This document shows, one piece after another, positions 1-7,144 of a DNA stretch of 28,105 nucleotides. This stretch comes from a virus. A program made the position numbers and the translations under genes. How positions within the stretch are numbered: position 1 is the stretch's first letter; the number at the start of each line of letters is the position of its first letter. The stretch lies in IMG/VR virus record IMGVR_UViG_3300030520_000092, positions 1 through 28,105 of that record; one strand, written 5' to 3'. The notes beneath the pieces are model-generated. The model ran no database searches. It saw nothing but the letters and a program-made list of their open reading frames with translations, and had not been told where the DNA came from.

Positions 1-584
1 TGTATCTCAAGCTCGAACGCGGTGAGGTTGACGCCATCAACAAGGCGTCATGGTCAAGCAAGGCCCGGCAATTCACCAGCGGCGCCGTCTACACGACGGA
101 TAGCCTTGGCAACCGGACCGATGTTTGGGAGGCCGTGCATACGGTCAAGCTCGACGCGCTTGCCGATATCATCGATGACGCGCAGGGTACGCCGATCCTG
201 GTGGGTTACAATTTCAAGCACGAACGGCAGCGACTACAGGCCCGTTTCAGGCACGCCGAGGTATTCGGACGGGGCAAGGTGTCAGACCGGTCCATCATCG
301 AGCGATGGAACGCCGGCAAGATTCCATTACTCCTGGTGCATCCGGCCAGTGCAGGGCATGGGCTTAACATCCAATTCGGCGGGCACATCCTGGTCTATCT
401 CTCAACGCCATGGAGCGGCGAGCACTATACGCAGCTCATCGGCCGGTTGCACCGCCAGGGCCAGCGGTCAACCGTGATCGTGCACCACATTCAGGCCCGC
501 GATACCGTTGACGCGTTGGTGCGTGCCAAGGTAGAGGGCAAGATTAAGACGCAGGATGATTTTAAAGCGGCGATGAAGCGTTAG
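1..584 (+). CDS. SNF2-like helicase, C-terminal part (5' end outside window)
   Basis: The reading frame is open from base 3 to a TAG stop at 582-584, so this is the last ~193 residues of a longer protein. It carries the second RecA-like lobe of a superfamily 2 helicase/translocase: a segment reading VLVGYNFKHE, then HPASAGHGLN (motif V region) and QLIGRLHRQGQ (motif VI with the arginine finger). This combination is typical of phage SNF2-family DEAD/H helicases, which act in phage DNA replication or recombination in the cytoplasm. The Walker A and DEAH motifs of the first lobe must lie upstream and cannot be checked. The gene converges on the minus-strand gene at 581-661 and their stop codons overlap, leaving no room for a separate terminator. 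Family is fairly certain; exact role is not. Confidence 0.85.
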   Translation, partial: YLKLERGEVDAINKASWSSKARQFTSGAVYTTDSLGNRTDVWEAVHTVKLDALADIIDDAQGTPILVGYNFKHERQRLQARFRHAEVFGRGKVSDRSIIERWNAGKIPLLLVHPASAGHGLNIQFGGHILVYLSTPWSGEHYTQLIGRLHRQGQRSTVIVHHIQARDTVDALVRAKVEGKIKTQDDFKAAMKR

Positions 585-3844: not shown

Positions 3845-4272
3845 CAGTTGACAGATGGTTGCATGCGCTCGGCGTCGCGAGGGATGGCGTACCAGGCTGG
3901 CCGCGCCACGCCGGGAGCCTCCGTGATGTAGAGAATCAACTCCATCACGTCTATCAGGCTGGTCAGCATGTCGTGTGTCTCGGGCAGCGAGAGCTGCGTA
4001 CCGATCTCGGCATGCGGCAGGGTGTCGATTACCTTGATAGCCAGGAACGCAGCGGTGCACTGGCCTTCCGCGATGTCGCGCAGCAAGCTTATGCGCTCCT
4101 CATCGTGCGGGATGTGTGCAAGGGCCAGCAGGAGGTTCGGCCGGATCTGCCTGGCGACCGGCAGAGGATCAGTAGTCCCGATGGCGCGCACGGCCGCGCG
4201 GGCATGCGATTGCCACGCGCGCGCATGTGCCACGACCGATGCTTCGTCGGTTCCGGGTAGTATGTATTTCAT
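3844..4272 (-). CDS. Hypothetical 142-aa protein
   Basis: A 142-residue protein starting MKYILPGTDEASVVAHARAW. It appears all-helical with several Leu/Ile-rich amphipathic helices (ISLLRDIAEG, DMLTSLIDVMELILYI) and no catalytic motif, signal or clear membrane span. The ATG overlaps the TGA of the Ala-rich gene (ATGA at 4269-4272) and its TGA overlaps the HNH start (TGATG), so it is coupled on both sides. Frames extending upstream to 4572 are Gly-rich mirror translations of the GCC repeat and were excluded. I do not recognise the family. Confidence 0.75.
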   Translation of the reverse strand: MKYILPGTDEASVVAHARAWQSHARAAVRAIGTTDPLPVARQIRPNLLLALAHIPHDEERISLLRDIAEGQCTAAFLAIKVIDTLPHAEIGTQLSLPETHDMLTSLIDVMELILYITEAPGVARPAWYAIPRDAERMQPSVN

Positions 4273-5021
4273 GCAGCCTCCATGAGTTCGATCATCTTGT
4301 CCGCCAGCGCTTCGTAATAGTTTTCTTTCGCCGCCCGCGCCTCCGCCTCCGCCGCCCACACCGCCGCCCGCGCCTCCGCCTCCGCCGCCCACACCGCCGC
4401 CCGCGCCTCCGCCTCCGTCGCCGTCGCCCACGCTGCCCACGCAGCCCACACCGCCGCCCGCGCCGCCGCCTCCGCCGCCGCCCGCGCCGCCGCCTCCGCC
4501 GCCGTCGCCGACGCCGTCGCCCACGCTGCCCACGCAGCCCGCACCTCCGCCTCCGCCTGCGCCGCATTCCACTCATAAAACGACGGTACGTCTCCAGCGA
4601 TCTTACGCTTATAAAGATTGCAGATATCGGTATTAGCTTTCTTCGCTGCGTCCGTTGTGTTGTACTGCGCAACGCTCTCGACAATCCAGAGCATGACCTT
4701 ATCGACAACGAGCGAGAGGACTGCGCCAGGCTTGGCCGCGCGCATGAATCGGCCAGGCAGGGCCATGGCATAGGCGTTGCTCGATCCTTCAAAGCATGCA
4801 TCTGCGATGCGCGCCAGCGCTTGCGGAATTCCTAGCTCCGTCTCGAACTTGGAATGGTCCTCGCCATGGATGCTGCAGCCTACGAGGCAGCCCTTACCTC
4901 CTTCCCAATAGAAGCCCTTGACGATCTGATCGAGCCGCCGGTGGCGATCGACACGCGCGACGTATTTCTTTTTGAGTGCGGCTTTGCCGTGGAAGGCGAG
5001 CATGGTTTTAGCAACTGGCAT
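4269..5021 (-). CDS. Ala-rich repeat protein with conserved phage N-terminal domain
   Basis: A 250-residue protein. The N-terminal ~115 residues include KTMLAFHGKAALKKKYVAR, then YWEGGKGCLVGCSIHG, EDHSKFETELGIPQALARI and a DACFEG..NA segment; from memory this block recurs in many unrelated phages and plasmids as a hypothetical protein, with the same habit of an Ala-rich tail. Residues ~150-240 are an Ala/Glu/Trp tract with 11-residue periodicity (AAVWAAEAEAR), likely a long helix or hendecad coiled coil. The start has an excellent ribosome site (AAAGGA, 7 bases upstream). It follows the methyltransferase by 24 bases. Biochemical role unknown. Confidence 0.8.
   Translation of the reverse strand: MPVAKTMLAFHGKAALKKKYVARVDRHRRLDQIVKGFYWEGGKGCLVGCSIHGEDHSKFETELGIPQALARIADACFEGSSNAYAMALPGRFMRAAKPGAVLSLVVDKVMLWIVESVAQYNTTDAAKKANTDICNLYKRKIAGDVPSFYEWNAAQAEAEVRAAWAAWATASATAAEAAARAAAEAAARAAVWAAWAAWATATEAEARAAVWAAEAEARAAVWAAEAEARAAKENYYEALADKMIELMEAA
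4331..4410 (-). repeat. 33-bp tandem repeat inside the Ala-rich gene
   Basis: A GC-rich unit encoding the 11-residue EAEARAAVWAA module is repeated in tandem at 33-bp period, with near-identical bases between copies and a decayed third copy, followed by further GCC-rich degenerate repeats to about 4560. The near identity at DNA level implies recent duplication or ongoing slippage that keeps frame. Confidence 0.7.
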
Positions 5022-5045: not shown

Positions 5046-5910
5046 TTAAATGGTGGCCATTACGGCTTTGATGACTTCCGCCGCGACGTGCGGTACGATG
5101 GCGTTGCCATAACCGCGCACCTGCCCCACGTCTCGGGGTAGCCCATAAGCCACCGGGAAAAGTCCGGGTTGAGTTGGGCGTTGCACGCCGTCCAAGCACG
5201 GGAGCCACGCAAGACGAGGCCAACCGCTTGCTCGTTGAGTGGACGGGAATTCCTGCGCATGGTTCGCACGCTGGCGCGACGGTCGCGCCAGTCCCGCGCC
5301 GCCGGGGTTGCCCAGCTTGCGAGCGCCACCTGTTGCGACAATGGCACGCCCCTGTCCCAGGGGCGTGCCGGCTTGACCCCGCGCCGCGCGTCCGTGACGG
5401 TTGGCGATACCCACGAACCAGAGCCGCTGACGGACATGCGGGGCTTTGACGCCCGCAGCGCATAGATCAACCGCCCCGCTGGCGTAGCCCGCGTCTTCCA
5501 GATCAGGGAGTACCAGATCGAGCCACGCAAGGCCGGGCTCGCTTGCAACCTGCTCACCAATGACGATTGGAGGGCGGCACTTGCGGATGAGGCCAGAGAA
5601 CACCGGCCAGAGGTGCCGTTCGTCTTTGACGCCTTTGCCTTTCCCCGCTTGGCTGAACGGCTGGCAGGGGCAGCTCCCCGTCCACACACACACACCGCGT
5701 ATCTTTCCATTGCGCAAGTCGGAGTGCGCAACTCCATCCGCCGATACCGGCGAAGAAATGACATTGCGTGTAGCCTTTGAGATCGCGCGGCGTGACATCC
5801 AGGATGCTCCTATCATCAACATCGCCTCGTGCGATGAGGTTGGCGGAAATGAGATTGCGGAGCCACTGCGCCGCAAAGGGGTCGTTCTCGTTGTAGTAGG
5901 CTCGGCTCAT
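5046..5910 (-). CDS. DNA (cytosine-5) methyltransferase, frame interrupted at a GT repeat
   Basis: Two overlapping frames together encode one Dcm-type enzyme that would methylate cytosine C5 using S-adenosylmethionine, normally to protect phage DNA from restriction. Frame one (start 5910, MSRAYYNEND, AGAGG ribosome site) carries SAM motif I HFFAGIGGW (residues 51-59) and then ends out of frame at 5554. Frame two, entered at the GT tract near 5683-5694, carries the catalytic loop GSCPCQPFS (Cys83 of the joined protein), motif VI IGEQV, motif VIII RQRLWFVG and motif X GYGNAIVP. One extra GT unit (or a -2 or +1 shift) would join them into a 288-residue protein, a normal size for a compact phage enzyme. 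As sequenced, translation gives a 118-aa inactive product. A sequencing error, decay, phase variation or programmed shifting all fit. Confidence 0.85.
5683..5694. repeat. (CA)6 / (GT)6 dinucleotide tract at the methyltransferase frame break
   Basis: Six perfect CA units on the plus strand followed by one more C. On the coding strand the tract reads CGG then TG six times then GAC. Seven units would give TGT GTG TGT GTG TGG ACG GGG AGC TGC, which places the catalytic PCQPFS motif in frame with motif I. The tract is therefore the natural site for slipped-strand switching or for a read error. Confidence 0.85.
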
Positions 5911-5956: not shown

Positions 5957-6748
5957 TCACGGTTTGGCCTTTTTCTTAGCTGCACGCTTGGTGAAAGCCG
6001 TAACCGTATCAACCCACGCGCAATGAGCTTTGAAGGCTCCGTAGATGCTCGCAAAGCCCCAGGTATCCCGCTCGGTGGAGTAGGCTTGTTTGCCGGCGAA
6101 CCATGCATTCCAGGCTTTGCGCGTTTTCGTCTTGCAGCCTATGCTGATGCGTCCGTCCGTCTCCGATCGGACGGACCATTTGCAGCGGATAGCGGACGCT
6201 CCGCCGCGCCAGATGCCGCCGCGCCAGTCGCCGCCGTGCCAGGTGCCGCCGTGCCAGGTGCCGCCGTGCCAGGTGCCGTCGCGCCAGGTGCCGCCGCGCC
6301 AGTCGCCGTCGTGCCAGATGCCGCCGAGCCAGGTGCCGCCGCGCCAGTCGCCGCCGAGCCAGGTGCCGCCGCGCCAGTCGCCGCCGCGCCAGATGCCGCC
6401 GTACCAGTCGCCGCCGCGCCAGTCGCCGCCGAGCCAGGTGCCGTCGCGCCAGTCGCCGCCGCGCCAGTCGCCGCCGAGCCAGGTGCCGCCGTACCAGTCG
6501 CCGCCGTGCCAGGTGCCGCCGTGCCAGGTGCCGTCGCGCCAGGTGCCGTCGCGCCAGGTGCCGCCGTACCAGTCGCCGCCGCGCCAGTCGCCGCCGAGCC
6601 AGGTGCCGTCGCGCCAGTCGCCGCCGAGCCAGGTGCCGTCGTGCCAGACGATCCAGCTGGAGGAATCCGTATACCATTCGACATCTTCATCCTCCGTACG
6701 GGCATCGGAGAGCCACCGGGGGCAGTTGGGGAGATCGGCTTTACGCAT
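5957..6748 (-). CDS. Trp-centred pentapeptide-repeat protein
   Basis: A 263-residue protein in three parts. Residues 1-35 are a Trp-containing N-terminus. Residues 36-180 are 29 uninterrupted pentads of the form [H/L/R/Y]-[G/D]-G-[T/D/I]-W. Residues 181-263 form a basic, Trp/Lys-rich C-terminal domain ending KRAAKKKAKP. In pentapeptide-repeat proteins the central position is normally Leu or Phe and the chain winds into a right-handed quadrilateral beta helix; several mimic DNA (Qnr, MfpA). Here Trp fills the central position throughout, which is unusual, and the helix would be Gly-rich. Function unknown; DNA mimicry or binding a host target is a guess. AGGA about 10 bases before ATG gives a plausible start. 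It is the first minus-strand gene after the control region. Confidence 0.8.
   Translation of the reverse strand: MRKADLPNCPRWLSDARTEDEDVEWYTDSSSWIVWHDGTWLGGDWRDGTWLGGDWRGGDWYGGTWRDGTWRDGTWHGGTWHGGDWYGGTWLGGDWRGGDWRDGTWLGGDWRGGDWYGGIWRGGDWRGGTWLGGDWRGGTWLGGIWHDGDWRGGTWRDGTWHGGTWHGGTWHGGDWRGGIWRGGASAIRCKWSVRSETDGRISIGCKTKTRKAWNAWFAGKQAYSTERDTWGFASIYGAFKAHCAWVDTVTAFTKRAAKKKAKP
6209..6643 (-). repeat. Twenty-nine 15-bp tandem repeats encoding Trp pentads
   Basis: The stretch is an unbroken 15-bp-period array on the plus strand of the form GCCGCC-GYGCCAG-YC, differing at a few fixed positions. All variation is multiples of 15 bp, so the frame is retained for 145 residues. Several short blocks of units recur in the same order, indicating multi-unit duplication. 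Confidence 0.85.
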
Positions 6749-6934
6749 GTCGTATGGTCCTGCAGGAGGAGGGAGTGTGGGCCGAGCCTGTAGCGCTGGC
6801 TCGGCGGAAGCGTTTCCTTGTGCACATCCTCTCCACTTAAAAAGGAATGCAAGGATTTATTTTAATGCGTCCATCCTATGCACCTGCCCAGGTATAGCTT
6901 GCGCCATCCTGCCCGCTACCCACAATCGGGAGCC
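6749..6934. promoter_or_regulatory. Divergent control region
   Basis: A 186-base non-coding stretch between the minus-strand pentapeptide gene and the plus-strand HTH gene. It is the only place in the window where two transcription units diverge. It contains the second copy of the promoter-like element (6824-6866), a local AT-rich patch (about 6838-6866) in otherwise GC-rich DNA, and a GGGAG ribosome site for the plus-strand gene at 6925-6930. The HTH protein may bind here, but no operator repeat could be identified with confidence. Confidence 0.5.
6824..6866 (-). promoter_or_regulatory. Conserved promoter-like element, copy 2
   Basis: On the transcribed strand ATTAAAATAA, CTTGCATTCCT, 12 variable bases, AGGATGT: the same blocks and spacing as 2705-2747. 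A following AAGGAAAC is also similar to the sequence after copy 1, where it is the ribosome site. It lies 76 bases upstream of the pentapeptide gene and is the best candidate for the promoter of the accessory cassette. Confidence 0.55.
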
Positions 6935-7144
6935 ATGACGAAGCCTCTTGATCCGAACGGCCTGATGGGCGTAACCGCCGCTGCCAGGGTGCTCAGGGTG
7001 AGCCGCAGCCGCGTGCATCAGATGATCTACGAGGGTAAGCTACCTGCTACCCTGGTAGGAATAAGCTATGCGCTCAGGCGCGCAGACGTGATCGAGCTGA
7101 AAGACAGACCAGGGCCAGGGGTGCCTGCGAAGAATCGGTCCTAG
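6935..7144 (+). CDS. Small HTH DNA-binding protein (excisionase/MerR-like)
   Basis: A 69-residue protein starting MTKPLDPNGLMGVTAAARVL. The segment GVTAAARVLRVSRSRVHQMI (about residues 12-31) is a winged-helix HTH of the excisionase/HTH_17 type, followed by a short wing region (EGKLPATLVGISYALRRADV) that matches the usual EGxLPA...YxxxxxDL pattern. The ATG at 6935 is chosen for the GGGAG six bases upstream; an ATG at 6878 lacks a site. It is the only complete plus-strand gene here, divergent from the accessory cassette and convergent with the end of the tail operon. Role is probably transcription control of the divergent promoters, or excision if the phage is temperate. Confidence 0.8.
   Translation: MTKPLDPNGLMGVTAAARVLRVSRSRVHQMIYEGKLPATLVGISYALRRADVIELKDRPGPGVPAKNRS

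Follow-up and report, generated by a model that had tools for sequence, protein, structure and literature searches.

A phage cytosine methyltransferase gene, probably inactivated by slippage in a GT tract, overlaps a second conserved reading frame

The window, the whole 28,105-base linear IMG/VR record IMGVR_UViG_3300030520_000092 (probably a fragment), carries a Dcm-type C5-cytosine methyltransferase (MTase) gene of PHROG 363 in two pieces on the minus strand (5046-5910), and the same DNA is predicted to encode a second selected protein, ORF2, in the +1 frame of the MTase. The break is probably a slippage-born null allele, arising from a net gain of two GT units in the phage C5-MTase gene. 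As a broken methylase alone this is an ordinary finding; the overlapping second gene matters more.

In the window, motif I (FFAGIGGW) is read in the frame with first-base remainder 0, in which codons begin at multiples of 3, within an ORF opened by its own ATG, and the catalytic PCQPFS in the frame with first-base remainder 2, within ORF 5046-5876 (Table 1). A sequence-only reading of this DNA had described one enzyme with these two motifs in different frames, every expected motif in order and the crossover inside (GT)6 at 5683-5694. That description holds: motifs I, IV (PCQ), VI, VIII and X are spread across two frames, with no continuous frame for all of them, and the GT alternation at 5683-5695 is the sole possible passage from one frame to the other. 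The N-terminal part matches PHROG 363 at 2.3e-27 and is 63-79% identical to relatives; the C-terminal part matches PHROG 363 at 2.3e-46 and PF00145 at 5.5e-13. Used alone as a query, the C-terminal part found no match in viral contigs, while profile queries did find relatives. Phage orphan C5-MTases of PHROG 363 (Escherichia phage N15 gp58, K1H gp32, Xanthomonas phage PhiXhv-2) carry motifs I, IV, VI, VIII and IX-X in the same order as the window and share its start region and its spacing up to within the tract, but the window frame is broken by 4 additional nt between motifs I and IV. Among 54 highly conserved columns, the C-terminal part keeps 91% (relatives' mean 95%; 22nd percentile), and the N-terminal part keeps 96% of its highly conserved columns, so neither part is decaying, and for the C-terminal part this leaves recent loss, reversible loss or error. 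As sequenced, the phage should make no working methylase, since the N-terminal part lacks the catalytic cysteine and the C-terminal part lacks the SAM-binding motif I.

Table 1. Features of the MTase region and the clearest plus-strand genes, in window coordinates.
Feature	Position	Strand	Remarks
Helicase end	3-584	+	With 6878-7144, the clearest plus-strand genes seen
MTase C-terminal part	5046..5690	-	PCQPFS, GEQV, APHVRQR, variable region, GYGNAIVP; remainder 2
ORF2 frame as encoded, 234 aa	5060..5764	-	Unrelated N-terminus read from the third frame
ORF2 conserved part, +1 frame of MTase	5063..5682	-	Remainder 1; PHROG 1008/31772; 0 stops observed, 5 expected
Encoded product: MTase N-terminal part continuing into the third frame, 118 aa	5554..5910	-	ORF reading
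GT alternation, (GT)6 plus G on the coding strand	5683..5695	-	Crossover between MTase halves
Presumed ORF2 N-terminal part	5683..5822	-	Remainder 2; ATG 5822, 5816 or 5798; severed by +4 nt
MTase N-terminal part	5695..5910	-	ATG 5910, HFFAGIGGW to ...WKDTR; remainder 0
Small HTH_17 protein	6878-7144	+	With 3-584, the clearest plus-strand genes seen

On the plus strand, 5683-5694 reads (CA)6, and with 5695 it forms a 13-nt GT alternation. This run is unique for its length in the window, where an 11-mer alternation is expected 0.02 times under dinucleotide shuffling; all other dinucleotide runs of at least four units are CG/GC, except one (TA)4. The site was compared in 170 relatives, comprising 10 annotated phages, 80 viral contigs and 80 bacterial genomes. 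Measured from the start of the motif I match to the start of the TGSCPCQ match, the spacing is 75 nt in 145 of 147 measured relatives, 72 nt in one and 69 nt in one; in the window it is 79 nt. The remaining 23, inspected by eye, likewise read in frame at the tract position, as do all 170 relatives, drawn from collections biased to intact genes. The extra bases of the window lie entirely between a CGG (Arg) and a TGG (Trp) codon. These codons stand 6 nt apart in the family pattern R-P-V-W, and the window has 10 nt there, all of it TG; being pure GT, the extra bases are what slipped-strand mispairing, as first proposed, would leave.

Because relatives have 75 nt where the window has 79, four GT units would give the family length, and the simplest history would be that the window gained two on balance (+4 nt). 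This estimate of the ancestral tract comes from the family spacing, the nearest MTases being about 50-75% identical. The earlier proposal that one added GT unit gives a full 288-residue protein is arithmetically correct, but seven units do not represent the family state. (GT)7 also restores the frame, yet adds two residues seen in no measured relative; a seven-unit ancestor would need these residues, which favours gain from four over loss from seven. At the site itself, none of the 147 measured relatives has more than three GT units, and among the viral contigs scanned none has six units before GGACNGG or four or more before WTG.CPCQ.

A second conserved gene, missed by the sequence-only reading, lies in the +1 frame of the same DNA. 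ORF2 matches PHROG 1008 at 2.4e-26 and PHROG 31772 at 3.2e-13. In 159 MTases, stops were counted from motif IV nearly to the gene end and compared with shuffles of synonymous codons within each gene. The +1 frame contains 22 stops against 441 expected and is thus open beyond the codon effect of the main protein. In the +2 frame of the same MTases, 1466 stops are observed and 1405 expected, and 144 other genes from the same loci, serving as control, give 1037 against 1064 (0.97). Selection bias is small, as 155 of the 159 genes had passed the openness filter. By region, counted in those 95 genes whose variable region is clear, the observed and expected +1 stops are 2/106 in the catalytic part, 0/79 in the variable region and 0/39 in the C-terminal part. 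Between motifs I and IV the ratio is 0/11.5; further upstream it is 229/240, with no depletion.

Peptide conservation in the variable region belongs to the +1 frame and not to the MTase frame: of 4465 pairs, 902 reach 35 bits with the +1 peptide and 89 with the MTase peptide, and the +1 score is the higher in all 902. Substitutions follow the alternative frame as well. Across 136 close pairs, which share sequences so that their counts are not independent, differences at MTase codon positions 1/2/3 number 2095/1510/3158 in the catalytic part, peaking at position 3, and 2449/1966/1727 in the variable region, where the peak falls on the +1 wobble position; the direction reverses as predicted. Stop depletion, peptide conservation in the variable region and this wobble reversal together show selection on ORF2: the MTase gene is dual-coding, and the predicted ORF2, which spans nearly the whole MTase length, is under purifying selection.

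The start of ORF2 most likely lies upstream of the tract, since relatives have their +1-frame ATGs grouped 35-47 codons ahead of motif IV, and stop depletion already covers the motif I-IV interval. With such a start, the additional 4 nt would break the MTase and ORF2 alike. In the window, the remainder-2 frame joins the front of ORF2 to the back of the MTase, the remainder-0 frame reads on from the MTase front to a stop at 5554, and the remainder-1 frame provides the back of ORF2 with a chance front. By frame arithmetic, four or seven units restore both proteins, and five units pair the MTase front with the ORF2 back.

The preferred reading, a null allele born by slippage, is given somewhat better than even weight. 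In the proposed course of events, the frame of an MTase of PHROG 363 (Dcm-like, of the epsilon15/N15/K1-phage kind) would be broken immediately ahead of the catalytic motif, in a short stretch rich in GT, where tract slippage would add two GT units and break the MTase and ORF2 together. The break would be recent, all downstream sequence being otherwise intact, and the allele would be null or transient, revertible by slippage at a low rate and not built as a switch. The position of the insertion and its length of 4 nt are observed; its pure-repeat composition points to slippage as the cause. Phages often gain and lose anti-restriction methylases.

A consensus or assembly error, behind which the true phage would carry a tract that keeps the frame, with MTase and ORF2 both normal, is unlikely but deserves consideration. 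The rest of the gene is intact, the tract break is the sole clear frame break seen in the window, and it falls in the longest dinucleotide run of the window, all of which would suit an error. Short-read errors, however, do not usually add two units to a tract this short. The other long genes also show no frame noise: the late genes (terminase, portal, head and others) occupy about 7.4 to 28 kb of the window on the minus strand, and the coding signal stays in one frame throughout each long late-region ORF, so the contig is free of general frame noise.

Distinctly improbable is a phase-variable locus, in which changes of the GT tract would maintain a population of MTase-on and MTase-off particles. 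The tract lies exactly at a frame-critical position within an ORF, the remaining gene is preserved, and its exactly six units equal the minimum length at which a Campylobacter survey listed candidate phase-variable genes, although the authors of that work warn that tracts of such length may mutate below 1e-5 (PMC6321876). As in bacterial simple-repeat phase-variable methyltransferase genes, the methylase frame depends on a tract of short units; the tracts of those genes, however, are longer or recurrent, whereas the window tract is short and confined to one genome. That the device envisaged by the sequence-only reading is a maintained one is not borne out by the relatives: none of the 147 measured has the tract, nor do the viral contigs scanned, and neither its retention nor length variation, nor any conserved switch, is seen among them. 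One sample's sequence gives a single known length, (GT)6, and the window holds no second simple-repeat candidate. A literature search of partial coverage returned no paper on phase variation of such a phage methylase, an absence that is not proof.

Recoding is very unlikely. In this case a ribosome would slip by -2 on the period-2 tract, or RNA polymerase would slip, yielding some full-length MTase and ORF2. The sequence permits exact -2 re-pairing of the P- and A-site tRNAs, the product would equal the (GT)7 product, and -2 frameshifting is used by phage Mu (PMC5009743). That product, however, would have two additional residues ahead of the catalytic strand, and these are absent from every measured relative. 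Neither a family-conserved slip site nor a stimulator is found: the site is conserved in no relative, and RNA structure downstream of the tract shows no excess over chance (z 0.2-0.5), so the frameshift site suggested earlier finds no support. Equally hard to credit, and judged a shade less probable still, is the idea that the grown GT tract acts as a slippage switch that re-pairs the halves of two selected proteins in overlapping frames, with both restored at four or seven units and hybrids at five and six. Least probable is a natural two-polypeptide MTase whose N- and C-terminal parts would be made separately and then assemble: in-frame GTG codons in the tract could restart the C-terminal part, M.AquI and M.EcoHK31I are likewise C5-MTases of two chains from two ORFs, and split C5-MTases can complement, but in those natural enzymes and in the M.SssI splits that work the division comes after motif VIII, and short N-terminal fragments failed to complement (PMC3404938), whereas here it falls between motifs I and IV, where all relatives are single-chain.

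Beyond the window, 224 phage records match ORF2, mostly from phages of Pseudomonadota hosts, and the +1 phase relative to the MTase is the same in every record checked, including three further phages. The window ORF2 matches PHROG 1008/31772, whose member K1H gp33 is listed as 'DNA methyltransferase', in the same phase; it differs from the members of this family in that its N-terminal part is severed by the insertion. The family name derives from the overlapped MTase gene and not from an activity shown here. Across the collected MTases (loci L004-L173), the +1 frame likewise holds this conserved overlapping gene, which public records name 'DNA methyltransferase' although its frame is a different one. 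Among several phage records (L004 770-1576, L008 806-1543, L005/L006), some have the +1-frame ORF alone annotated as methylase (PhiXhv-2, Cr-LKS3), and others have both frames so annotated; in the Xanthomonas phages, the ORF truly carrying the MTase motifs starts near 688. The 'double' methylases annotated in Xanthomonas and K1 phages were considered as split genes and rejected, the second ORF being the overlapping ORF2.

ORF2 has no match in Pfam, NCBIfam or PDB sequences. Its AlphaFold model (mean pLDDT 61, pTM 0.27) contains one helix and a beta hairpin that are well predicted, and this low-confidence model finds no fold match with E below 1, so structure assigns no function to ORF2. The gene overlap invites the guess that ORF2 acts with the methylase or in a counter-restriction role. 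The literature search, again of partial coverage and thus no proof of absence, returned no description of the MTase/ORF2 overlap, which as far as searched appears undescribed; ORF2 itself is already annotated and placed in PHROGs. In many phages, a gene that bears only a cytosine-methylase annotation would contain a second predicted protein under selection, some 220-300 residues long, which public families list by the name of the methylase. If ORF2 is made, the long 'variable region' of the MTase would owe its shape to another protein and not to target recognition, and this would change how the specificity and evolution of such methylases are read.

Among the MTase relatives, a Dokdonella MAG (L146, about 1501-2500) carries a Hint (intein-type) domain exactly at the catalytic cysteine (PVWSGSCPC, then FPAGTLVLTTDGY; Pfam Hint_2, E 1e-9). 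Two alphaproteobacterial relatives (L125, L136) contain a cysteine-rich stretch after PCPPFSAAGKG, just past the catalytic motif, which includes SECPSCGGKSC in L136.

No close relative of the phage itself was found among the sequences searched: the terminase returned one distant match only, 37% identical, and the major head protein and the 725-aa protein returned none. A related 11-kb contig lacks the MTase. No RNA families or tRNAs were found in the window. At 6201-6647 lies an array of 15-bp units with a higher period of 75 bp, which encodes GGDWRGGTW-type pentapeptide repeats, with no Pfam match, in ORF 5957-6748 on the minus strand. Two further minus-strand proteins, at 1569-2150 and 4269-5021, bear long Ala/Trp/Glu-rich repeat tails (AAWAAWATA..., AAQWAAQWA...).
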